A program made the translations under genes and the position numbers. This document shows, piece by piece, positions 15,467 through 29,765 of a DNA stretch of 35,083 nt (positions are counted from its first letter, which is position 1; each line of letters starts with the position of its first letter). The notes beneath the pieces are model-generated. The model saw only the letters and a program-made list of their open reading frames with translations, was not told where the DNA came from and did no database searches. The DNA is from Planctomycetota bacterium (lineage in GTDB: Bacteria > Planctomycetota > Phycisphaerae > Sedimentisphaerales > Anaerobacaceae), in the NCBI GenBank assembly GCA_012517265.1, contig JAAYVJ010000633.1, positions 1 to 35,083 on the forward strand, written 5' to 3'.

Positions 15467-17236
15467 ATGACCAAACAACGCATGCACTTAGGGGAAATCC
15501 TCTATAAGGCAGGCTTGGTAGAAAAACAAGCTCTGATCAATGCGATCAAGACGGCCAAGACCAGCAATAAGAGGTTGGGGCAGGTTCTGATCGATCTGGG
15601 ACTGATCAATGAAGATGTCCTGGCCAAGGCGATTGCCAAGCAGTTCGGCCTCAAGTACGTGGATGTCGATCAGATCCCCATCCCCCCGGACGCGACCACG
15701 ATTGTGCCGGAGGATCTCATCAAGCGGCACAACATCCTGCCGCTGAGCGTCGCCAACGGTCGCCTGAAGCTCATCATCGGCGACCCGATGGACCTCGACA
15801 TGATGGATTCGGTCCGGCTCCGACTTAACAAGGAGCTGGAGTGTTATGTGGCCAACCCGAAAAAAATCCGGGCCTACATCGACGAATCTCTGGTCTCCAA
15901 GCCCGCCGTGGCCAGCGAGAGCGGCGGGGCGGCCGCTGCGGTGGAAGACGACCGGCTCAAGCACAGTATCGACGCCACCGCGGCCGAGTTGGCCGCGGAA
16001 GGTCAGGCTCTCCAGGCCGAAGTCCTTCGAATCCAGGCCGGCGACAGCGCCGACGAAGGTCCGATCATCAAGCTGGTGAACCTGATCATCGATACGGCCT
16101 ATCACATGAGGGCCAGCGACATTCACATTGAGCCCATGGCGGACCGCGTCCGCATCCGCTACCGCATCGACGGGGTTTGCCTCGAAAAGGACAACATCCC
16201 CAAGAACATGCAAAACCCCCTGGTCACGCGTTTCAAGATTCTCTCCGGCATGGATATTGCCGAGAAGCGGCTGCCCCAGGACGGTCGTATCAAGCGAAAC
16301 ATCGGCGGCACGGACATCGACTTCCGTGTCTCCTCCCTGCCCGGCGTGCACGGTCCCAGCATTGTGCTTCGTATCTTGCGGCCCGACGCCGTCAATATCG
16401 GTATCGAGTCGCTCGGTTTTGCGCCCGATAACTACCAGACCTTCCAGCAAATCATCAAGCGGCCCAACGGGATCTTTCTGGTGACCGGTCCGACCGGCAG
16501 CGGCAAGACGACGACCCTGTACGCCGCACTCCAGGAGCTGAACAAGCCCGACAAGAAGATCATCACGGCCGAGGACCCGGTCGAGTACAACTTCGCCGGC
16601 ATGAACCAGTGCCAGGTCCGCCACGAGATCGGCCTGTCGTTCGACAAGATTCTTCGTGCCATGCTGCGTCAGGCGCCGAACATCATTCTGGTCGGTGAAA
16701 TCCGCGACGGCGAGGTGGCGAACATCGCCATCCAGGCCGCTCTGACAGGCCACCTGGTCTTCAGCACGCTGCACACCAACGACGCCTGCGGCGCCATCAC
16801 CCGCCTAATCGACATGGGGGTCAAGCCGTTCCTTGTGGCCAGCTCCATTCAGGCCATCATGGCCCAGCGTTTGGTCCGCGTGATCTGCAAGAAATGCAAG
16901 GTCGTGGACGAGAACCCAAATCCCAAGTATTTGCGTTTGCTGGGGATCGACCCGGCGGAGATCAAGAAGCGGCCTGTCTACAAGGGGGCCGGCTGTCCCG
17001 CATGTCAAAATACGGGCTATAAGGGTCGTAAGGGCATCTTTGAGATGATCGAAATGAATCCCGAAATCCGGGAACTCGCCTTCAAGAGGGCCACGACCAG
17101 CGAATTGCGGGCGGCCGCTCGGGCCAGCGGCATGAGAACGCTGGCGGAGGACGGAGTGCTGAAAGTATTCAGCGGGATCACCACGGCCGAAGAGGTCTCG
17201 CGCAACGCGCAGGTCGAAGGCATCGTGGCGGAGTAG
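15467..17236 (+). CDS. gspE: Type II secretion/type IV pilus assembly ATPase (GspE/PilB), copy 1
   Basis: N-terminal MshEN-like LGEILYKAGLV...RLGQVLIDLGLINEDVLAKAIAKQ; Walker A GPTGSGKTTT; VGEIRDGEVANIAIQAALTGHLVFSTLHTNDA; CxxC...CxxC (CKKC / CPAC). Confidence 0.95.
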   Translation: MTKQRMHLGEILYKAGLVEKQALINAIKTAKTSNKRLGQVLIDLGLINEDVLAKAIAKQFGLKYVDVDQIPIPPDATTIVPEDLIKRHNILPLSVANGRLKLIIGDPMDLDMMDSVRLRLNKELECYVANPKKIRAYIDESLVSKPAVASESGGAAAAVEDDRLKHSIDATAAELAAEGQALQAEVLRIQAGDSADEGPIIKLVNLIIDTAYHMRASDIHIEPMADRVRIRYRIDGVCLEKDNIPKNMQNPLVTRFKILSGMDIAEKRLPQDGRIKRNIGGTDIDFRVSSLPGVHGPSIVLRILRPDAVNIGIESLGFAPDNYQTFQQIIKRPNGIFLVTGPTGSGKTTTLYAALQELNKPDKKIITAEDPVEYNFAGMNQCQVRHEIGLSFDKILRAMLRQAPNIILVGEIRDGEVANIAIQAALTGHLVFSTLHTNDACGAITRLIDMGVKPFLVASSIQAIMAQRLVRVICKKCKVVDENPNPKYLRLLGIDPAEIKKRPVYKGAGCPACQNTGYKGRKGIFEMIEMNPEIRELAFKRATTSELRAAARASGMRTLAEDGVLKVFSGITTAEEVSRNAQVEGIVAE

Positions 17237-17262: not shown

Positions 17263-18414
17263 ATGGCAACACTGAACATGGACCGAATCCTCCAGGCGTG
17301 CGTAACCCAGGGGGGATCCGATATTCACATCTCCGTCGGCCGGCCGCCCGTCATGCGTATTGACGGGCACCTGAGGTCGCTCGAAACCAAGGTGCTCGAG
17401 CCGGATGACACGGCCGCTTTGATGAAGAGCATTACGCCGGAACGGTGTCAGCAGGAACTCCAGGAGGAAGGGGGAACCGACTTTGGCTTTGCGTTTGGCA
17501 CCGCTGCCCGTTTCCGCGTGTCCGTCTTCAAACAGAAGGGCACGCTCGCCATGGTGCTCCGGCAAATCCCCTACAAGATCCTTACCTTTGAGGAGTTGGG
17601 TCTGCCGAAGATCTGCGCGGCTCTGTGCCGGCGACCCCGCGGCCTGTTTCTGGTCACCGGACCTACCGGTAGCGGCAAGACGACCACGCTGGCGACGATG
17701 ATCAACTACATCAACGAGAACTTCGACCGGCACATCGTGACGATCGAGGACCCCATCGAGTATTATCACCCCCACAAGAAGTCGGTGATCAACCAGCGAG
17801 AGGTGGGTGTGGACGTTCCGAGCTTCGCCGAGGCTCTACGCCGCGTGTTGCGTCAGGACCCCGACGTCATCCTGGTCGGCGAGTTGCGAGACCTGGAGAC
17901 GATTGAGGCTGCCGTGCGTGCCGCCGAGACTGGACACTTGGTGTTCAGTACGGTCCATACGACGAGCGCCGCCGGCACGGTCAACCGTATCATCGACGTG
18001 TTCCCGACGGACCAGCAGGAGCAGATCCGCATTCAGTTGAGCGGCAACCTGATCGCCGTGCTGAGCCAGGCTTTGTGCCCTCTGGCAACCGGGCGGGGGC
18101 GTATCGCGGCCTATGAATTCATGGTCGTCACCCCCGCTATCGCCAACCTGATCCGCGAGAACAAAACCTACCGCATCGATTCGAGTATCCAGACCGGCAA
18201 GAAGCTGGGTATGCAGCTGCTGGACGAGCACCTGTGGAACCTCTACGACATCGGCAAGATCACGCTGGAGGAGATGTTGGACAAGGGGCGAGCCCCGGGT
18301 GCCCTCCAGGAGAAGGCACTGGCCAAGATCGCCGGTGCCAAGGGCAAGATGAAGAAACACGCGGAAGAGGCAAAGAAGGAACTCGAGGACCTCGGACCGA
18401 TCCTGAAGACCTGA
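17263..18414 (+). CDS. pilT: Type IV pilus retraction-type ATPase PilT
   Basis: GSDIHISVGRPPVMRIDGHL; GPTGSGKTTTLATMINYIN; VGELRDLETIEAAVRAAETGHLVFSTVHTTSAAGTVNRIIDVFP; ANLIRENKTYRIDSSIQTGKKLGMQLLDEHL. Confidence 0.93.
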   Translation: MATLNMDRILQACVTQGGSDIHISVGRPPVMRIDGHLRSLETKVLEPDDTAALMKSITPERCQQELQEEGGTDFGFAFGTAARFRVSVFKQKGTLAMVLRQIPYKILTFEELGLPKICAALCRRPRGLFLVTGPTGSGKTTTLATMINYINENFDRHIVTIEDPIEYYHPHKKSVINQREVGVDVPSFAEALRRVLRQDPDVILVGELRDLETIEAAVRAAETGHLVFSTVHTTSAAGTVNRIIDVFPTDQQEQIRIQLSGNLIAVLSQALCPLATGRGRIAAYEFMVVTPAIANLIRENKTYRIDSSIQTGKKLGMQLLDEHLWNLYDIGKITLEEMLDKGRAPGALQEKALAKIAGAKGKMKKHAEEAKKELEDLGPILKT

Positions 18415-18625: not shown

Positions 18626-20398
18626 ATGGCGATGGGTAACGGAAAGGCAGTCGAAAAGCTCCCTCCAGTCGAGCAGCTCCGCGGCCGACCGATCGGCAGG
18701 ATCCTGATGAAGATGGGCCTGCTCAGCCGGGAGAAGGTCCATGAGTGCCTTGAGGTCCAGAAGAAGCGAGGGGGTGGCATCCGTCTGGGCCAGATCCTCG
18801 TGGAACTGGGGTTGGTGGATGAAGCCAAACTCCAGATCGCGCTGGCCGCGCAGCGGGGCATCGAGTACATCAGCATCGACGGCTTGGACATCGCGGCCGA
18901 GGTGATCGAGAAGGTCCCGGCCCAGATGGCCAAGACCTTCCACATCCTTCCGATCGCGTACAACAAGGACAAGAAGGAACTGACGGTCGTCTTGGACAAC
19001 GTGGACAACTTCCGGGCGACGGACGATCTGCGGACGCTCATGGGGTTCGCCATCGTCGCCAAGATGACCGACCACAGCAGTCTGGAGGCTGCGATCAACA
19101 AATATTATGAGACCAAGCAGGACGACAACATCACCGAGCTGATCGACGAGATCCAGTCGGATTCCTTCCTCCAGGAGTTCCAGGGGCGAAACGCCAGCAT
19201 CGACCTGGACGAGCTCAAGGAGTTGTCCGAGTCGAACCCCGTGAAGAAGCTGCTGAACCTGGTTCTGCTCCAGGCGATCCGCGACAAGGCGTCCGACATC
19301 CATTTCGAGCCGTTCGAGTCGGAGTACAAGATGCGGTACCGCATCGACGGGGTGCTCTACGAGATGATCCCGCCTCCGAAGTATATCGCCGCGGCTTTGA
19401 GTTCTCGTATCAAGGTTATGGCCAACCTGGACATCGCCGAGCGCCGTCTGCCCCAAGACGGTCGTATCTCCTTGACCGTTCAGGGCAACCCGGTCGACCT
19501 CCGCGTCAGCGTGCTGCCCACCATGTTCGGCGAGAGCGTGGTGCTTCGTATCCTCGACCGGAGCCAGGTGAGCTTCGACATCAACAAATTGGGCCTTCGC
19601 CCGGCGGACATCAAGACCTTCCGGCAGTTGATCGACAAGCCCAACGGCATCGTCATCGTGACCGGGCCAACCGGCTGCGGCAAAACGACGACGCTCTATG
19701 CGGCACTCAGCGAGCTGAACACCATCGACACCAAGATCATCACCACCGAGGACCCGGTGGAGTACGATATGGACGGGATGATCCAGTGCCAGATGAAGCC
19801 TGAGATCGGGCTGACGTTCGCCCGCTGCCTCCGCGCCATTCTGCGTCAAGACCCGGACATCATCCTGGTCGGCGAAATCCGCGACCTGGAGACCGCGGAA
19901 ATCGCGGCCCAGTCGTCCCTGACCGGCCACCTGGTCTTCACGACCCTGCACACCAACGACGCCCCGAGCTCGATCGCCCGTCTGCTGGACCTGGGCGTCG
20001 AGCCGTTCCTCTTGACGGCGACGATCGAAGGGATCGTCGCCCAGCGACTCGTTCGGAAGATCTGCCCGGGCTGCAAGACGGAGTTCGAACCCAGCGAGGC
20101 GCAGCTCAAGGATCTCCGCCTGACTGAGGAGGACATCAAGGGCAAGAAGTTCTATTACGGCCGGGGTTGCAGCCGCTGCAACGGCACCGGGTACAAGGGC
20201 CGGCTCGGCGTGTTCGAAATCATGGTGTTCAACGAGGAAATCCGGGAACTGATCATGAACCGCGCCTCGACGAACGTGCTTCGCGTGGCGTCGCTCAAGG
20301 CGGGGATGCGTCCCCTGCGCGAGAACGGTCTGGCCGCGATCTATGACGGCCTGACGACGATCGACGAGATCGCGCGGGAGACGATGATTGAAGGATAA
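18626..20398 (+). CDS. gspE: Type II secretion/type IV pilus assembly ATPase (GspE/PilB), copy 2
   Basis: MshEN-like IGRILMKMGLLSREKVHECLEVQ and RLGQILVELGLVDEAKLQIALAAQ; Walker A GPTGCGKTTT; CPGC / CSRC zinc motif. Confidence 0.95.
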   Translation: MAMGNGKAVEKLPPVEQLRGRPIGRILMKMGLLSREKVHECLEVQKKRGGGIRLGQILVELGLVDEAKLQIALAAQRGIEYISIDGLDIAAEVIEKVPAQMAKTFHILPIAYNKDKKELTVVLDNVDNFRATDDLRTLMGFAIVAKMTDHSSLEAAINKYYETKQDDNITELIDEIQSDSFLQEFQGRNASIDLDELKELSESNPVKKLLNLVLLQAIRDKASDIHFEPFESEYKMRYRIDGVLYEMIPPPKYIAAALSSRIKVMANLDIAERRLPQDGRISLTVQGNPVDLRVSVLPTMFGESVVLRILDRSQVSFDINKLGLRPADIKTFRQLIDKPNGIVIVTGPTGCGKTTTLYAALSELNTIDTKIITTEDPVEYDMDGMIQCQMKPEIGLTFARCLRAILRQDPDIILVGEIRDLETAEIAAQSSLTGHLVFTTLHTNDAPSSIARLLDLGVEPFLLTATIEGIVAQRLVRKICPGCKTEFEPSEAQLKDLRLTEEDIKGKKFYYGRGCSRCNGTGYKGRLGVFEIMVFNEEIRELIMNRASTNVLRVASLKAGMRPLRENGLAAIYDGLTTIDEIARETMIEG

Positions 20399-20454: not shown

Positions 20455-21717
20455 ATGCCGGTCTTCCAGTATGTGGCGCTGGATTCCCAGGGCGTCGAGA
20501 TCAAGGACGAGATCGAGGCCCTCAGCGAAAAGGAAGCGATCAGCAAGATCCGCAACATGGGGTACTTCCCCACGAAGGTGCGGTCCAAGGCCGCCACGGC
20601 CGCCAAGGCGGGGGGCAAAGGGGCCGCGGCCAAGGCCAAGAAGAGGCGGGGGGCCGGAGCCAAAGTCAAGGTCAAGAACGTCACGCAGTTCGCCCGGCAG
20701 CTCTCCACCCTTCAGGACGCGGGTTTGCCGGTGTTGCGGTCGTTGCGCATTCTCGAAGAGCAGCAGAAGAAGGGGAACTTCAAGCGGATCATCGGGTACG
20801 TCGCCGACGACATCGAGGGCGGCTCGACGCTGTCGGAGGCCTTCGCCAAGTACCCCCGTTGCTTCGACCGGCTGTTCGTGAACATGATCGCGGCGGGCGA
20901 GGCGGGCGGCGTGCTCGACCTGATTCTGTCCCGCGTCGCCGACTTCAAGGAAAAGGCCGAGCGATTGAAGGCCCGCGTCAAGGGCGCCATGATCTACCCG
21001 ATCGTCGTGCTGTGCGCGGCGTTCGGCATTCTGATGGGCCTGATGCTCTTTGTGATTCCCCAGTTCGAGTCGGTGCTGACGGAAATGGTGGGCGGCAAGT
21101 TGAACCCCATCACGACCACCGTGCTGGGCATCAGCGCCTGGATCGCCAAGGACTTCGGATGGGCCTGGCTGGCCGGCGTGCCCATCTGCTTGATCTTCAC
21201 CGTGAAATTCCTCAAGCGGTTCCGGCCGGTCCGCCTCGTGACCGACTCGATCCAGTTGCGGCTCCCGGTGCTCGGGCAGTTGACCAGCAAGGTCTCGATC
21301 ACGCGGTGGACGCGAACCCTGGGCACTCTGATCAGCGCCGGTGTGCCCATTCTCGACGCGATCAACGTGACGCGAGAGACGGCCGGCAACGAAGTGTACG
21401 CGAACATGCTCACGGCGGTGCACAACTCGATCCGCCAGGGCGACACGTTCGCGGGCCCCTTGCGGCTGTCCAAGACGGTCGACCTGCTCGTGGCGAACAT
21501 GGTCGCCGTCGGCGAGGAAACCGGCGACCTCGACAAAATGCTCTTGAAAGTGGCCGACCAGTACGACGAGCAGGTCGACGTGCTCGTCGGCGGCCTGATG
21601 TCCATGCTCGAACCGATCATGATCATCGGTCTGGGCAGCATCGTGATGATTATCGTGTTGGCGGTGTTCTTGCCGATGATCCAGGTCATCACCAGCCTGG
21701 GCTCCGCCGGCAGTTGA
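20455..21717 (+). CDS. gspF: Type II secretion system inner-membrane protein GspF (PilC family)
   Basis: MPVFQYVALDSQGVEIKDEIEALSEKEAISKIRNMGYFPTKV...FARQLSTLQDAGLPVLRSLRILEEQ...EPIMIIGLGSIVMIIVLAVFLPMIQ. Confidence 0.95.
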   Translation: MPVFQYVALDSQGVEIKDEIEALSEKEAISKIRNMGYFPTKVRSKAATAAKAGGKGAAAKAKKRRGAGAKVKVKNVTQFARQLSTLQDAGLPVLRSLRILEEQQKKGNFKRIIGYVADDIEGGSTLSEAFAKYPRCFDRLFVNMIAAGEAGGVLDLILSRVADFKEKAERLKARVKGAMIYPIVVLCAAFGILMGLMLFVIPQFESVLTEMVGGKLNPITTTVLGISAWIAKDFGWAWLAGVPICLIFTVKFLKRFRPVRLVTDSIQLRLPVLGQLTSKVSITRWTRTLGTLISAGVPILDAINVTRETAGNEVYANMLTAVHNSIRQGDTFAGPLRLSKTVDLLVANMVAVGEETGDLDKMLLKVADQYDEQVDVLVGGLMSMLEPIMIIGLGSIVMIIVLAVFLPMIQVITSLGSAGS

Positions 21718-21779: not shown

Positions 21780-22691
21780 ATGAAACCGACCACCAACCAG
21801 GCCAGAAGGAAACGGGCGTTCACCATCGTCGAACTGCTGACCGTCATGAGCATCATCGTGATCCTCATCGGTCTGCTGGTTCCGGCGTTGAACAAGGCCC
21901 GGCGCTACGCGACGCTCGTGCGGCAGAAGGCGCAGCTTCACAGCATGGACGCCGCCATCGAGCTGTTCAACAACGAGTACGGCAGCTATCCGCCTTCCAC
22001 GGCGCTGGACCCGGACGGACTGCCCTATTGCGGCGCGATGAAGCTGTGCGAAGCCCTCATGGGACAGGATCTGCTGGGCTTCCACTCCAACTCGTCTTTC
22101 CGTCGCAACGGGCTCAGCGACAGCGGCGCCGTGCTGTTTCCGCCGAACATCGACGCGATGACCGAGGTCGAACGGGCTGCGACGTTGACGGCCCGCATGG
22201 GGCCCTATCTGGCGGCTGAAAACGCCAACGCCTGGCAGTTGCGGGACATCTACGACAACAGCAAGATCAGCGCTCAATCCTTCCTACCGACCTCCCGGGT
22301 GCTCTGCGACGTCTACGAGCGGCAGATGCCGGGCGGCCAGAAGGTGGGCATGCCCATCCTCTACTACAAGGCCGATACGACCAGCACGCAGCATGACGCG
22401 AGCCTGCCGATGTCGGCAACCAGCAACGGCGGCAACATCTACAACTACATGGACAACCAGTCTCTGGTCCTGATGGGCAAGCCGTGGATTTCCTCCACAG
22501 ACACGTCGTCGTCGTCGTCGCATAGTCTGGCAACCCCGGCTCGGTTCTACATGAACACCAAGAGCGACAAGATCACGACGGCCTCGCGGCCTTTCCGTCC
22601 CGACCAGTACATCCTGATCTCGGCCGGATGGGACAACGAGTACGGCACGGCCGACGATGTCTGCAACTTCGAGTGGAAGTATCAGAAGTAG
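21780..22691 (+). CDS. Type II secretion pseudopilin, GspG-like, large form (copy 1)
   Basis: RRKRAFTIVELLTVMSIIVILIGLLVPAL prepilin signal; C-terminal ILISAGWDNEYGTADDVCNFEW. True start at 21780 with AAGGAG SD; the track ORF begins much further upstream out of context. Confidence 0.88.
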   Translation: MKPTTNQARRKRAFTIVELLTVMSIIVILIGLLVPALNKARRYATLVRQKAQLHSMDAAIELFNNEYGSYPPSTALDPDGLPYCGAMKLCEALMGQDLLGFHSNSSFRRNGLSDSGAVLFPPNIDAMTEVERAATLTARMGPYLAAENANAWQLRDIYDNSKISAQSFLPTSRVLCDVYERQMPGGQKVGMPILYYKADTTSTQHDASLPMSATSNGGNIYNYMDNQSLVLMGKPWISSTDTSSSSSHSLATPARFYMNTKSDKITTASRPFRPDQYILISAGWDNEYGTADDVCNFEWKYQK

Positions 22692-22760
22692 CGGCGGGCC
22701 CGTCGAGCCGCGGGGCTTGCAGCAACTGGATCGTGACATCGCTATGGAAAGAGGATAGCC

Positions 22761-23681
22761 GTGAAAACGACAAGATCAGGCCTGACGATGATCGAAATCA
22801 TGGTGGTGGTCGGTATCATCGCCATACTCATCGGGCTGTTGATTCCGGCCGTGCACACCGTGCAGCGGATGGCCAAGGAGACCAAGCAGAAGGCGCAGTT
22901 CACGGCCATCGAGCTGGGTCTGGCGGCCTTCAAGAGCGACTACGGGGATTACCCCCCCTCGTTCTGGTTCGATCCTTCCGCCACGGGAACGACCGCCGCG
23001 CTGCGGAACTATTGCGGCGCCCAGAAGCTGGCCGAGGCGATGGTCGGCTGGGACCTGATGGGATTCCATCCGGACTCCGCCTGGCGGGCCGACGGCCTGG
23101 ACAAGAGCGGAACGGCCAACACGGTGTACCTGGAGACCGACACCCTCAAGAAACGCAGGGGCCGGTACGTGGAGTTGGATGTCGCCAATCCGTTCCTGCT
23201 CGGGGGCGGTACGGACAGTCTGTTCCCGGGGGGGGTCGTTGATCTGGCGCCGCGGACCTACGTGCTGTGCGACGTGTTCACCCGCCCGGAGCGCAAGATC
23301 CAGCAGATCGACGGCAAGCTGGTGGCCGCGGGCACGCCGATCCTCTACTACAAGGCCAACCCGGCCAGCCTGATCCACCATCCGGTTTCGTGGAGCCAAA
23401 CGAGCGTGTGTATCTACGATGCCCGCGACAACGCGCCGATCCTGAACCAGGGTCTGCTTGCTGACAGCGCCAAGTTGCCGACCTTGCGCCGTCAACACGA
23501 CCTAGCGCCGGGCATCCGTCCGGGAACGACGAGCTTCGAGTACTTCTACGATTTCTACATCCGCGATATGCGGATTCAGGGTCGGCAGTGGCCGGTCCGG
23601 CCGGACTCGTACCTGCTGATCTCGGCGGGCATGGACGGCATCTACGGCACCGAGGACGACATCCGGAACTTCGGACAGTGA
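22761..23681 (+). CDS. Type II secretion pseudopilin, GspG-like, large form (copy 2; GTG start)
   Basis: MKTTRSGLTMIEIMVVVGIIAILIGLLIPAV; C-terminal LLISAGMDGIYGTEDDIRNF. Confidence 0.88.
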   Translation: MKTTRSGLTMIEIMVVVGIIAILIGLLIPAVHTVQRMAKETKQKAQFTAIELGLAAFKSDYGDYPPSFWFDPSATGTTAALRNYCGAQKLAEAMVGWDLMGFHPDSAWRADGLDKSGTANTVYLETDTLKKRRGRYVELDVANPFLLGGGTDSLFPGGVVDLAPRTYVLCDVFTRPERKIQQIDGKLVAAGTPILYYKANPASLIHHPVSWSQTSVCIYDARDNAPILNQGLLADSAKLPTLRRQHDLAPGIRPGTTSFEYFYDFYIRDMRIQGRQWPVRPDSYLLISAGMDGIYGTEDDIRNFGQ

Positions 23682-23695
23682 CAAAAGAGGATCGC

Positions 23696-24202
23696 ATGAG
23701 GCGGCCTATGACGGTGGGGCATCACAACCAGGCGGTGACGCTGATCGAGATGCTGGTCGTGTTGGGCATCATCGCGGTGCTGGCCAGTCTCGTGGTTACG
23801 CTGACGCTCCGGGTCGACAGCCAGTCGAAGGAGCGGGCGCTGGACAGCGTCTTCGGGCTGTTGAACACCTCGCTCCGGGAGTACTACGATGTTCGGGGCA
23901 AGTTCCCCGAGCAGCCCGTGCGGGATGCCCGCAACCTGGCCTTGGACCACATCGAGCTGGCGGTCAAGGAACTGCGGTCCGTGCCGGATTCGCGGGCCGT
24001 GCTCGAACAGCTCGACGCTTCTCTGGTCAAAAGCCAGGCAGGCGACCCCGACATCGCGGAGATCCGCGACCCGTGGGGGACCGTGCTCGACTACGTCTAC
24101 GAGCACGCTGACGGCAAGGGCGACACGTTCCCCGAGCTGATCTCCGCCGGGCCGGACAAGACGTTCGGGACCGGAGACGACATCAGCAGCAAGGCCCGTT
24201 AG
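23696..24202 (+). CDS. Type II secretion pseudopilin, GspG-like, short form (copy 3)
   Basis: MRRPMTVGHHNQAVTLIEMLVVLGIIAVLASLVVTLTL; C-terminal PWGTVLDYVYEHADGKGDTFPELISAGPDKTFGTGDDI. Confidence 0.87.
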   Translation: MRRPMTVGHHNQAVTLIEMLVVLGIIAVLASLVVTLTLRVDSQSKERALDSVFGLLNTSLREYYDVRGKFPEQPVRDARNLALDHIELAVKELRSVPDSRAVLEQLDASLVKSQAGDPDIAEIRDPWGTVLDYVYEHADGKGDTFPELISAGPDKTFGTGDDISSKAR

Positions 24203-24295: not shown

Positions 24296-25171
24296 ATGAG
24301 CCTGCAAGCGCGCAAGACAACCGGATTGACGCTGGTCGAGATGACCCTGGTCATCGCGACGATCGCCATCATGGCGGGCCTGGCGGTGCCGGCCATGCGG
24401 GCGCTGGTCCGATCGTTCCAGTCCGAGGGCGGCGCGATCAGCATGATCAACGCGGCGCTGAACTCGGCCCGAACGATGGCGGTCAGCCGCCAGCGATACG
24501 TGGGGATTCGCTTCCAGAAGCTGTGCACCTCGACCGACCCGGCCGATCCCCTCAAGGGGCTGATGGACGCCCCGCAGTACATGATCTTCATCGAGCACGT
24601 GCAGACGACCAGCACTTTCGATCTGGAGGACGGCTTCCAGGCGGTCGAGGGCCTCGAACCGGTCAAGTTGCCCAGCCCGATGGGCGTCATGGAACTCAAC
24701 TGGATCGCCAAGGACGCGGACATCGACGAACCTTTCGAATTGTCGGATGCGACGACGTTCTCCATCGTGTTCTCGCCGGCGGGCAAGTTGGTCACCCACG
24801 ACGTGCGGGTCCGCAACCGCGACGGGGTGTACCGGCCGGACAATACCGCAGGAAGTAACAAGGAGTCTCGGGACGACGTGTTCAATTCGGCGGCGAACAT
24901 CTGCAAGCCCAAGGTGGGGACGTTCGTGCCGCGGGGCATGTTCCTCCAGGACGACTACTTCCCGAGGAAGAACGGCTCGGCCGGCCAGACGGACGGCCTC
25001 AACTACGGCCTGGGCGAAGAGCCCGGCTGCACGAGCTTCGTGATCTATCAGACGCCGCAACTGCGGGTCGTGTACGACAAGAAGATTGCGTGGACCGGCT
25101 ATCTGAGCGGGCTGGCGACCAAGGCTTTCTACGTCAGTCCGTACACGGGCAACCTGATCTCGGCGAAATGA
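24296..25171 (+). CDS. Type II secretion pseudopilin, GspH-like
   Basis: MSLQARKTTGLTLVEMTLVIATIAIMAGLAVPAMRALV prepilin signal; positional match to GspH in G-H-I-J-K order. Confidence 0.8.
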   Translation: MSLQARKTTGLTLVEMTLVIATIAIMAGLAVPAMRALVRSFQSEGGAISMINAALNSARTMAVSRQRYVGIRFQKLCTSTDPADPLKGLMDAPQYMIFIEHVQTTSTFDLEDGFQAVEGLEPVKLPSPMGVMELNWIAKDADIDEPFELSDATTFSIVFSPAGKLVTHDVRVRNRDGVYRPDNTAGSNKESRDDVFNSAANICKPKVGTFVPRGMFLQDDYFPRKNGSAGQTDGLNYGLGEEPGCTSFVIYQTPQLRVVYDKKIAWTGYLSGLATKAFYVSPYTGNLISAK

Positions 25172-26001
25172 CGGGCGCTATGACAAAAAAACGGCAACAG
25201 CACGGATTCTCGTTGACGGAGACGCTGATGGCCGTCGGGACGTTGGCCATCGGCATGACGTTCATCGGCGGCACCTTTCTGACGGGGATCTACTTCGCGA
25301 CCCTCTCGACGGAACGGACGGTCGCGGCGGTGGCGTCGGAGGAGGCGTTTGCCAAGATGCAGATCTTCGGCCTCGACGTCGACGATCCCAATCTAAAGAC
25401 CAGCGAGTTCGTCCCGTATGAGGATCTGACGACGCTGCCGGCGAAAGAGACGTTCTATCCGTCCACGAGCGGGGATTCGGACCGGCAGTACTCCTGGTCG
25501 GCGCTCTGCCGGCGGGTGGTCGACGTCAACGACGGACCCGACGGCGCCGCGACCAAACGCGGCGAACTCATCCAGTGCGTCGTTTTCATCAGCCGGGAGA
25601 CGGGCGCCCATTCTTCCTACCGCAAACGCCAGAGCGGCTCGATCTGGCCGCAGTTGGCGCAGACCGACCTGCCATGTCCCGTGCGGGTGAACATCGCTCA
25701 GAACTCCGGAATGACCGACCAGGTCCTCGTCAAGGACGCCGTCTCCGGCGACGCGGTCGACGAGCGGACGTTCGTCGCCCAGGGCTCGATCCTGGTGGAC
25801 AACGCGACCGGCGGGATCTATCGCGTGCTGGAGCGGGACAAGACGCAGCCGGAGAAGGTCACGCTGGACCGCGCCTGGGACGGCGGCGACCTGACCGCCT
25901 CCGACGGCGGCTGGGTCTGGGTGGTTCCGCCGCCGGTGGCGGGGGGGCGGATTCCCTGCATCGCCGTGTATCAGAAGATCATCAGATTCCCGAGGCCGTA
26001 A
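25168..26001 (+). CDS. Type II secretion minor pseudopilin, GspI-like
   Basis: MTGAMTKKRQQHGFSLTETLMAVGTLAIGMTFIGGTFLTGIYFA; ATGA overlap with the preceding stop (alternative start 25180). Confidence 0.78.
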   Translation: MTGAMTKKRQQHGFSLTETLMAVGTLAIGMTFIGGTFLTGIYFATLSTERTVAAVASEEAFAKMQIFGLDVDDPNLKTSEFVPYEDLTTLPAKETFYPSTSGDSDRQYSWSALCRRVVDVNDGPDGAATKRGELIQCVVFISRETGAHSSYRKRQSGSIWPQLAQTDLPCPVRVNIAQNSGMTDQVLVKDAVSGDAVDERTFVAQGSILVDNATGGIYRVLERDKTQPEKVTLDRAWDGGDLTASDGGWVWVVPPPVAGGRIPCIAVYQKIIRFPRP

Positions 26002-26002
26002 G

Positions 26003-27121
26003 ATGCGAAAAGCCTTCACGCTCATGGAGTTGGTGGTGGCCCTGGCGATCCTGGCGGTGGTGTTGGCCATCGCCGGAGTGATCTTCCGCGTCAGCATTGA
26101 TTCGCACCGGCTGGCCCTGGCCAACGCCGAGATCATGCAGAAGCTCCGCGTCCTGACGGACCAGTTGGACGCCGACTTCCGCAGCCTCCGCAAGGACGCG
26201 GAGATCTTCGTGGTCTGGAACGCGGTGCCCAAGCTCAACTACGTCGCACCCGAGCCCAACGGGACCGGGAGCCAGGCGGGGACCAATTTCCTGGGCACCC
26301 GGGGCTACGAGCGGTTCGACCGGATCATGTTCTTCTCCACGGGCGATTTCCAAGCCTACGGCCGTTCGGAGCGGGGCAACGTGGCCCGCATCTGCTACAC
26401 GATGGCCCGCGGCCCGTCGGACAACGCCAGTGAACCCAACTGGGCGCCGGATCAGAAGCCCTGGAAACGGATGCTGGCCAGGACCCAGCACATCCTGATC
26501 CCGCCGGCGCCGAACAGCAGCGACAAGCCGCTGGATGTGAACGACTTCACCACCGAGCAGTGGCTTGCATGGAACAGCCAGGAGGAGATCGACCGGATCT
26601 CGCTGGAAGGGTGGAAACGCATCCCGTGGGAGCAGAAGATCAACATGCTCTCGGTGATCGGGGACATCACGATTACCGCGGCCAGCGGCGGCGGCCAGTT
26701 CGAGAGCGACACGGCCAAGGAGGCCCGCGGCGTGCTGATCGATCCCGCCCAGCCGGACTCGATCCATTCGCTCTTCTGCCAAGGCGTGGGCCAATTCATG
26801 GTCCAGGGCTGGAACGACCAGTTGGATCGCTGGATTCCGGCGGTCGATCCGAACGAGGACGGCGACCTGGCGGATTCGGACTTCATCCTGACGTCGGACA
26901 AGAAGCGGCTCGATCCCGAGAACGATCCCGGCCTGTGGTATCCGCGAGGCGGGTCCAGCCTGCGGGATCCGAATTTCCCGGTGAACCAGATCGACCAGGA
27001 CCACTTCAACCTGATTCCCGGGCTGGGCCGGGCCTTGAAGTTCACGTTCACGCTGTATGACTCGCGGAACCTGATCAAGAACGGCAGGACGTTCACGCAC
27101 ATTGTCTACCTGGACAATTGA
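26003..27121 (+). CDS. Type II secretion minor pseudopilin, GspJ-like
   Basis: MRKAFTLMELVVALAILAVVLAIAGVIFRVSIDSHRLALANAEIMQKLRVLTDQLDADFRSL. Confidence 0.82.
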   Translation: MRKAFTLMELVVALAILAVVLAIAGVIFRVSIDSHRLALANAEIMQKLRVLTDQLDADFRSLRKDAEIFVVWNAVPKLNYVAPEPNGTGSQAGTNFLGTRGYERFDRIMFFSTGDFQAYGRSERGNVARICYTMARGPSDNASEPNWAPDQKPWKRMLARTQHILIPPAPNSSDKPLDVNDFTTEQWLAWNSQEEIDRISLEGWKRIPWEQKINMLSVIGDITITAASGGGQFESDTAKEARGVLIDPAQPDSIHSLFCQGVGQFMVQGWNDQLDRWIPAVDPNEDGDLADSDFILTSDKKRLDPENDPGLWYPRGGSSLRDPNFPVNQIDQDHFNLIPGLGRALKFTFTLYDSRNLIKNGRTFTHIVYLDN

Positions 27122-27131
27122 TGGAGCAGCC

Positions 27132-29765
27132 ATGAAGGAATCGAGCGGACATATTGCGGCAGGCCGGCCCCGAGGCTCGGCCCTGATCCTGACGGTCGTG
27201 CTCACGAGCCTGCTGGCCATCGTCGGCGTGCTGTTCGTGATGGCCACGCGGATCGACAAGATGGCGACCACCGCGGCCACGGAGAGCCGCGAGCTGACCT
27301 GCGCCATCGACACCGTGGTGGCGCAGATCGGTCAGGCCCTGGCCGACGACGTCCCCGGCGTCACCAAGAGCCAGGAGTACTATGACTACCCCGACGACGC
27401 CAACCCCTGGCTGGCAGACCTGGAGCCCTATGAGTCCGGCGGCAAGTACTACTGGCGGCAGATCAGCAATTTCGGCGTCCTGACCAGCGGCGTAAGGAAC
27501 ATCCTCATCAACAAGATCATCGGAGAGCGGGATGCGATCGTCAATCCCGGCAAGGTCGCCGACCCGGACGCTCTGGCCGACGCCGACGGCGACGGCGTGG
27601 CGGACGCCAAATGGTTCCAGGTGCCCGACGTCATGACGAGCAAAGGCAAGCGGTTCTACGCCGCGGTGCGCGTCATCGACAATGGCGGCATGCTCAACCT
27701 GAACACGGGCTTTCGCTTCGACCCGACCGATTCGACCGATTCCGGCGTCGAGATGACCAGTCCGCTGCGGGTGAACGTCCTTTCCCTGGCGGCAGGGCCC
27801 GCTGCGGCGCCTTCCGTGCAGGATGAGGAGACCCTCCTGGGCGTCCGGGCCAACGGCGCGACGGGTTCCAGCGCCGCCCTGAACCTGCCGGCCTACGAGC
27901 GGAGCGTGATCTGGCAATATCTCGACGTGAAGAACCCCAGCGACTATACGCCCTTCGACATGTCGGACGAGCTGGAGCTTCGCAATCGCTACGTGGTTGA
28001 TCAGACCGAGATCGACACCCGTGCGGAGACCTGCGGGCGGTTCACCGGGATGTCGGTGCCGCTCAGCAGGGATCTGGACAAGTGGTATCCGCGAGTGACG
28101 CGAGGGAACAACTTCTCCTCCTATGCGTATCGCCACATCGCCACGACGTACAACATGGACCGGATCCTCGCGCCGGAGCCGACGGATTCGAGTCTCGCGA
28201 TGCCGCTGGGGAAGATGGTGAACGTCAACACGGCGGACGTGCAGACCCTGCGCAAGGCGGTGGTCGCGGCGCTGTTGGACTCGCAGCCGAATCTGAATCA
28301 CGAGATGGCAGCGCAGGAGGCCGCCCAGATCAGCGCCAACCTCATCGACTATATCGACGACGACGACGAGGTCACCGTGATCAACGAACTGTCGTCGGCC
28401 TACTACGGCTTCGAACGGCCGTGCGTCTACATCTCCGAGATCGCCTGCCGGCTGGTGGAGGATTCGACCGGCAAGCACTGGTCCTACGCGGTCGAGCTGT
28501 TCAAGCCGTACTTCGAGGACAAGGACCCCAAGGCCGACGAGTGGCAGCTCGTGATCGATAGGCCGAACACCAACGCCGATCCCAGGCTGTCGCTGGTCTG
28601 GAGCGGGTCCCGGCGGTTCCACGTCGTCCTGGCCGACGATCCGCGGGCGACGCTGAGCGGCTACGTGACCTTCACGGACGCCAACGAGCCCGCCGATTCG
28701 ATGCCGCTGTACGCGTACAACCGCGCCGATTACGCCAGACAGGTCCAGACGACCAGTCCCGACAATTTCCAGTTCGAGGCCGGCGCGACCATCTCGCTGG
28801 AGCGGAACGTGCCCGGCGCATCGAGGCCGTTGACGGTCGATATGATCCGAGTGCCCGAGGGGTGGATGCCGACCGCCAGCGGCGCCTACAGCATCCGGCG
28901 GGATATCCAACCGTACCGAAGCGTCCGGCGGCTCTGGGCCTCCGCGGCGGAGCGATCGACGCCCACGCTCGGCAACGACGTGGGGCCCTATGTGGACAGG
29001 CAGCGTCCCGGCCTGATCCAGGCCCACCCGGCCAACCGGCCCCTGACCAACATCGGAGAACTGGGCAAGATCTTCCGGCAGAACGGATACGTCATGATTC
29101 CGGAAGGGCAGCTCGCGACCGCCGTGCTGATCAACCTGGTCGATCCGAACAACGCCGGGCTCTTCAGATATCTGACGGTGATCGATCCGGCCAACAAGCC
29201 CAGAGTCGCCAACAGCGAAACGCGCATCATGGGGCGGATCAACATCAACACCGCGCCGGCGTTTGTTCTGGCTCAGTTGCCCTGGATGTCCTACAAGGGG
29301 GTGGCGGCTGCCGGCACAGCCGGGTCGGTGACGGGGACCGGCGCGACGAACTCGTCCTCCAACCCTGTTTTCGATCTTCAGACCGCCTATGGTCGAGGCG
29401 AGGAGATCGTCAAGTACCGGGACGCCCACGGCGCGTATCGAAGCACGGCCGGTCTGATGCAGGTGCCTGCTCTGTATGCTCTGGCCTCCGATCTGGGCGG
29501 AAATGGACACAACGACACGCCGCGGGGGCCGGATCTGACGCCGGACACCGCTCTGAACGATCTCGAAGAACGGGATCTCCTGTTCACCCGGCTCAGCGAC
29601 CTGGTCACCGTGCGAAGCGACGTCTTCACGGCGTACATCCTGATCCGGATCGGAGAGTCCGGCCCGCAGAAACGCCTGATCGCGATCTTCGACCGCAGCC
29701 GGGTCAACTCGCCCGGTGACAAGGTCCGACTGGTCGCGTTGCACCCCGTTCCCGACCCTCGCTAG
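27132..29765 (+). CDS. Type II secretion minor pseudopilin, GspK-like (large)
   Basis: RPRGSALILTVVLTSLLAIVGVLFVMATR N-terminal segment lacking Glu5 as in GspK; NVNTADVQTLRKAVVAALLDSQ and ININTAPAFVLAQLPW (GspK/HhH-like NxNTA motifs). Confidence 0.8.
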   Translation: MKESSGHIAAGRPRGSALILTVVLTSLLAIVGVLFVMATRIDKMATTAATESRELTCAIDTVVAQIGQALADDVPGVTKSQEYYDYPDDANPWLADLEPYESGGKYYWRQISNFGVLTSGVRNILINKIIGERDAIVNPGKVADPDALADADGDGVADAKWFQVPDVMTSKGKRFYAAVRVIDNGGMLNLNTGFRFDPTDSTDSGVEMTSPLRVNVLSLAAGPAAAPSVQDEETLLGVRANGATGSSAALNLPAYERSVIWQYLDVKNPSDYTPFDMSDELELRNRYVVDQTEIDTRAETCGRFTGMSVPLSRDLDKWYPRVTRGNNFSSYAYRHIATTYNMDRILAPEPTDSSLAMPLGKMVNVNTADVQTLRKAVVAALLDSQPNLNHEMAAQEAAQISANLIDYIDDDDEVTVINELSSAYYGFERPCVYISEIACRLVEDSTGKHWSYAVELFKPYFEDKDPKADEWQLVIDRPNTNADPRLSLVWSGSRRFHVVLADDPRATLSGYVTFTDANEPADSMPLYAYNRADYARQVQTTSPDNFQFEAGATISLERNVPGASRPLTVDMIRVPEGWMPTASGAYSIRRDIQPYRSVRRLWASAAERSTPTLGNDVGPYVDRQRPGLIQAHPANRPLTNIGELGKIFRQNGYVMIPEGQLATAVLINLVDPNNAGLFRYLTVIDPANKPRVANSETRIMGRININTAPAFVLAQLPWMSYKGVAAAGTAGSVTGTGATNSSSNPVFDLQTAYGRGEEIVKYRDAHGAYRSTAGLMQVPALYALASDLGGNGHNDTPRGPDLTPDTALNDLEERDLLFTRLSDLVTVRSDVFTAYILIRIGESGPQKRLIAIFDRSRVNSPGDKVRLVALHPVPDPR

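Follow-up and report, generated by a model that had tools for sequence, protein, structure and literature searches.

Three consecutive prepilin genes on one strand of this planctomycete DNA raise the question of which of their products builds a filament, and whether that filament belongs to a pilus or to a secretion piston. The window, by which we mean the whole 35,083-nt stretch that was analyzed, carries these genes (G1, G2, and G3) on the + strand between the ATG start codon of G1 at 21780 and the stop codon of G3 at 24202 (Table 1). The initial annotation had described them as three tandem GspG-like pseudopilins ending in a shared motif, two of them about 300 residues long and with a large insertion in common. 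The coordinates proved exact, and all three C-termini have the form SAGxDxx[YF]GTxDD[IV] (G1, ISAGWDNEYGTADDVCNF; G2, ISAGMDGIYGTEDDIRNF; G3, ISAGPDKTFGTGDDI). A six-frame scan of the 35-kb window with the pattern [STA]AGxDxx[YFW]GTxDD[IVLM] matched at 22620, 23622, and 24143 only, and the motif was absent from 200 base-shuffled versions of the window scanned in the same way. Each protein begins with a class III prepilin N-terminus (N_methyl), with predicted prepilin cleavage at A13|F14 in G1, G7|L8 in G2, and A13|V14 in G3. Mature G1 and G2 have both Glu5 and Pro22; G3 has Glu5 and lacks Pro22.

G1 and G2 align over their full length at 40% identity, including the YCGAxKLxEAxxGxDLxGFH block that had been singled out as common to them. 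Between G3 and the pair, similarity is confined to the pilin N-terminus and the C-terminal loop (24 columns, 46% identity). Because G3 has no insertion and is of normal GspG size, the "three tandem" copies resolve into one paralogous pair and one separate GspG-like gene. When the AF2 model of G3 (pLDDT 89.8, pTM 0.77) was compared with known structures by Foldseek, the matches were EHEC GspG (3g20, probability 1.00), Ca-bound PulG (5o2y, 0.99), and EpsG (4lw9), with E values of 0.01 to 0.09 overall and 0.013 to 0.019 for 3g20 and 5o2y. With a predicted fold that matches GspG/PulG, G3 does not count as another copy of G1/G2.

Table 1. Features of the prepilin cluster in the window, and predicted secreted-protein genes in the arrays of related loci
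Feature	Position	Strand	Basis or remark
CinA	from 14130		same direction, upstream end of array
PilB/GspE-type extension ATPase 1, MshEN + T2SSE	15467..17236	+	domain search
PilT-family ATPase	17263..18414	+	TIGR01420, 465 bits against a cut-off of 319
PilB/GspE-type extension ATPase 2	18626..20398	+	domain search
PilC/GspF inner-membrane platform protein	20455..21717	+	domain search
G1, large decorated prepilin, 303 aa	21780..22691	+	translation, N_methyl and TIGR01710 N-terminal matches, own tree clade
G1 Ca-loop-like motif ISAGWDNEYGTADDVCNF, Asp285, 292, 293	22617..22670	+	motif scan, homology to GspG loop
G2, large decorated prepilin, 306 aa, GTG start	22761..23681	+	translation, predicted structure, class-wide homologues
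G2 first decoration, residues 66-165, helix 1 to first core strand	22956..23255	+	model, alignment
G2 second decoration, residues 199-282, ILYYK strand to last strand	23355..23606	+	model, alignment
G2 Ca-loop-like motif ISAGMDGIYGTEDDIRNF, Asp292, 299, 300	23619..23672	+	conservation, hhalign to GspG
G3, GspG-like prepilin, standard size, 168 aa	23696..24202	+	translation, Foldseek, PulG alignment
G3 Ca-loop-like motif, Asp154, 161, 162	24140..24184	+	motif scan, PulG alignment
GspH-like minor prepilin	24296..25171	+	domain search, conserved position
GspI-position minor prepilin	25168..26001	+	N_methyl, conserved position
GspJ-position minor prepilin	26003..27121	+	domain search, conserved position
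GspK-like protein, 887 aa, helix-hairpin-helix, without Glu5	27102..29765	+	HHH_3 E 1.4e-6; T2SSK E 0.04
XseA			downstream of GspK-like gene
Predicted secreted-protein gene inside array, usually between G1 and G2 (relatives)	L044:4907-5875, L070:1589-2455; also L046, L050, L067, L068 (two), L069, L071, L072
Predicted secreted-protein gene elsewhere in array (relatives)	L052:4157-6019, L062:6171-6884

The GspG relationship proposed for the C-terminal loop was borne out by profile and structure comparisons. A profile of the G1/G2 head aligned with the C-terminal region of one of the genome's ordinary GspG proteins (PDGYDLSSYGPDYRMGGDDDITNW; hhalign, E 6.5e-5, 41%, 29 columns), a clear T2SSG member (E 1e-34) encoded in another cluster; a second same-genome GspG (contig C402) gave no significant hhalign alignment with the head profile. 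The best Foldseek match of the G2 model was likewise GspG 3g20, over about 22 columns (45% identity, 1.6 A, E 0.27), which we infer from the sequence alignments to be the C-terminal loop. The C-terminal region of G3 contains DPWG followed by SAGPDKTFGTGDDI and aligns with DPWG...SLGPDGVPESNDDIGN of PulG, in a weak second domain of the alignment. All three proteins share the class III signal and Glu5 with GspG/PulG/EpsG (TIGR01710, PF08334) and resemble them in the calcium-loop sequence, SxGxDG...DDIxN[WF]; G1 and G2 are also alike in Pro22, and G3 in overall predicted fold. In contrast to these proteins, G1 and G2 are twice as long, contain two insertions, and match in structure over only the 22 or so columns. 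Family scores lie below the cut-offs: TIGR01710 gave 30.6 bits for G1, 42.4 for G2, and 30.5 for G3 against 88.85, and PF08334 had no match in G1 or G2 and scored 14.6 in G3 against 21.

The loop itself is strongly conserved: Asp292, Asp299, and Asp300 of G2 do not vary in any of 80 sequences, and 109 of 110 sequences from across the class retain its pattern. The calcium site of GspG reportedly goes back to work by Korotkov in 2009 and Lopez-Castilla in 2017. For PulG, calcium is reported to be critical in folding and assembly (PMC6692295). From its sequence, the GspG-type loop of G1 and G2 most likely binds Ca2+ and stabilizes the folded head.

The additional length of G1 and G2 lies in two insertions, here called the decoration. 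With an 80-sequence alignment as input, AF2 modeled G2 at a pLDDT of 91.9 and a pTM of 0.89, and both decorations were mostly modeled with confidence. Across the 80 sequences, G96, D98, G101, and R132 are invariant in the first decoration, and Y219, D223, N224, F262, and P278 are nearly invariant in the second. Because both insertions hold fixed or nearly fixed residues and are mostly modeled with confidence, the decoration is likely an ordered domain rather than disordered loops. The view of the initial annotation that the shared insertion is novel was supported: the G1/G2 insertions matched no Pfam or NCBIfam domain, and the G2 model had no PDB match at E<0.1 (Foldseek) and nothing significant among viral structure models. 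Cys85 (23013-23015) and Cys170 (23268-23270) of G2 are both present in 41 of the 80 sequences, both absent from 20, and present singly in 19; this co-occurrence suggests a possible optional disulfide in the decoration, in a subset of the family only. Modular pilins of the Streptococcus sanguinis PilB type (PMC8179133) likewise display an extra module, but the extras of G1 and G2 lie inside the head, before the C-terminal loop, rather than being fused to an end, and they match no known domain. A literature search found no paper describing the decorated family, which is a real, class-conserved, and apparently undescribed variant of type IV pilins.

The three genes belong to a single co-directional array with the order PilB-PilT-PilB-PilC-G1-G2-G3-H-I-J-K. 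Loci of 40 species of the order, some of them truncated at contig ends, have this array with its gene order unchanged, and the order E-F-G-G-G3-H-I-J-K recurs in several other families of the class. No secretin, PilM/N/O, or GspC/D/L/M was found among the genes searched around the pilins or in the conserved order of the 40 loci. The cluster is a type IV pilus-like machine with T2SS-type minor pilins. The presence of PilT and the absence of a secretin and of PilMNO from the cluster resemble the organization of a type IVa pilus. Also alike are the PilB-like ATPases, the PilC/GspF homologue, the PilT score above its cut-off, and the separation of the assembly ATPases from a PilM locus. The cluster differs from that of a type IVa pilus in its two PilB-like ATPases, its GspG-loop pilins, and its H-I-J-K genes with a GspK-like protein. 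T2SS-like features are the GspG loop and the H-I-J-K set; the cluster differs from a T2SS in having PilT and no secretin. The two PilB/GspE-type ATPases flank PilT, as they do in most of the order's loci that have enough flanking sequence.

Elsewhere in the genome there are 12 secretin matches, all on other contigs, and nine PilM-like matches. Together with several further clusters, this gives a single bacterium a large number of type IV filament machines. Separate GspE/GspF/GspG-like clusters lie on contigs C338, C402, C219, C231, and C609, among others. At L217:2827-8685 (contig C201), a stand-alone PilM gene (746 aa) is followed by two large genes of 445 and 732 aa; neither of the latter matches Pfam, and there is no ATPase nearby. 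The 732-aa gene was found in 20 of 21 genomes searched. This order-conserved PilM locus may complete the machine of the window and is a candidate partner for it.

We favor the interpretation that G1 and G2 are the large body subunits of a type IV filament machine in this Phycisphaerae bacterium, either co-assembled or alternative, and we give this interpretation as a whole a probability of roughly 0.55. Gene content, conservation, loop homology, predicted fold, and duplication age are its computed parts, from which it extrapolates to calcium binding, assembly, surface display, and function. Prepilin peptidase would cleave the N-termini of G1 and G2, and the helices bearing Glu5 and Pro22 would pack in the filament core. 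The head, retaining the GspG C-terminal loop, would bind Ca2+ and be stabilized, and the two insertions would form an additional domain on the surface, exposed along the length of the filament. Both proteins would polymerize, together in one filament or separately in alternative ones, with H-I-J-K as the tip primer, PilB and PilC driving assembly, and PilT permitting disassembly. G3 would be a standard-size GspG-like subunit of the same machine, and the outer parts (secretin, PilM/N/O) would be encoded outside the cluster. Streptococcus sanguinis offers a precedent for more than one main pilin per machine, its type 4 pilus being a heteropolymer of two pilins (PMC10628169); the host there is monoderm, and copolymerization of G1 and G2 is putative.

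Alternatively, the cluster might encode a T2SS-like secretion piston in which G1 and G2 are alternative pseudopilins matched to different cargo, a possibility that we consider less likely. The GspG-type loop and the H-I-J-K genes with their GspK-like HHH protein would fit a piston, as would a predicted secreted-protein gene inside the pilin array of relatives. In the same family, at least nine relatives carry this gene between G1 and G2, and two other families have a similar gene elsewhere in the pilin array; the arrangement hints at a role in secretion or display. Against a piston stand the PilT gene in the cluster, the absence of GspC, D, L, and M from it, and the other clusters of the same genome, which have ordinary GspG, GspE, and GspF and a secretin nearby. 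The predicted secreted proteins of the relatives start with approximately VxNGSFExDG and end in EF-hand/dockerin-like repeats; they are absent from the genus of the window. "Dockerin-like" is a reading of the sequence only, because Pfam returned no match at E<0.05 and the PDB returned a weak EF-hand match (E 0.59).

A different assignment of roles would make G3 the major subunit and G1 and G2 large minor pilins, tip or adhesin-like, that decorate a GspG-like filament. Only G3 combines standard size with a GspG-like overall predicted fold, a big head would burden the body of a fiber, and in other systems pilins with large decorations are believed to sit exposed at the tip (PMC8179133). G2, whose model matched no major pilin in overall fold, could itself be a minor or tip subunit. 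The residues of the N-terminal helix point in the other direction. Among G1/G2 sequences of the order, Glu5 is present in 82/82 and Pro22 in 77/82, and Pro22 is found in 27 of 28 class-outgroup G1/G2 sequences. In G3, Glu5 is present in 35/35 sequences, Pro is not among the commoner residues at position 22, and the G3 of the window has Thr there. Pro22 is only suggestive for G1/G2, because H also has it. Position also favors G1 and G2, which come after PilC/GspF; nearly all loci of four families retain two to three copies of them, and the H-I-J-K minor set is complete without them. Codon adaptation relative to the ribosomal-protein cluster in eight genomes gave no contrast among G1, G2, and G3, pointed to high expression of none of them, and follows GC3. 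We consider a G3 body with accessory G1 and G2 less likely, and we give the most weight to G1 and G2 as body subunits.

The distribution and age of the pair bear on the tandem duplication that the initial annotation had proposed for all three genes. We relied on whole-genome searches with a full profile and with a head-only profile, because most of the matches listed in a scan of named organisms fell on the generic N-terminus of pilins. Of the 61 genomes searched, 53 (its own genome counted) had a G2 homologue; among them are all 30 genomes with completeness of at least 90% and contamination of at most 5%. G1 orthologues were found order-wide. The family profile matched 118 of 248 class genomes at E<=1e-25, and the matches listed were mostly full length. 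Outside the class, within a phylum sample, full-profile matches covered the pilin N-terminus only, and head-only matches covered the C-terminal 30 to 90 residues only. The loop module is phylum-wide, and within this sample the decoration is seen only in Phycisphaerae. Verrucomicrobia "Verru_Chthon cassette" pilins (TIGR02596, TIGR02599) also form pilin arrays in the PVC group and give weak N-terminal matches, but the likeness is limited to the N-terminal helix and all scores are below the cut-offs. A second G2-like C-terminus (63% identity, contig C497, 9716-9799) ends at a contig end and adjoins another ATPase-PilT-PilC-like set.

In a maximum-likelihood tree of 110 sequences, the copies of the order, family f5 excepted, form a single clade split into a c1 and a c2 lineage; families f23 and f19 each have first-copy and second-copy groups of their own. 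Each of the c1 and c2 lineages spans several families, which dates the duplication to before the families of the order diverged and makes it ancient; pairs also occur in other families of the class. Tandem duplication thus stands for G1 and G2, as an old event, and not for G3, which is not a product of it. A recent duplication without functional meaning, like other expanded planctomycete pilin arrays, is very improbable: the genome is rich in pilin-like genes (30 matches, mostly N-terminal), but the tree disfavors it, the c1 and c2 lineages are older than the families of the order and each has constrained residues, and the pairs are maintained across tens of genera.

Taking G1 and G2 as body subunits further, one may picture a two-subunit filament of paired double-size pseudopilins that carries a new fold along the fiber and that, in some relatives, delivers or displays a cotranscribed secreted protein with calcium-repeat-like sequences. 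We consider it unlikely that this fuller picture holds in all its parts.

The filaments of Planctomycetota are little studied. A class-conserved pilin pair with the GspG calcium loop on a far bigger head would show how far a pseudopilin head can expand. In a group whose genomes hold many secretins, the locus also offers a defined cluster for telling a retractable pilus from a secretion piston.
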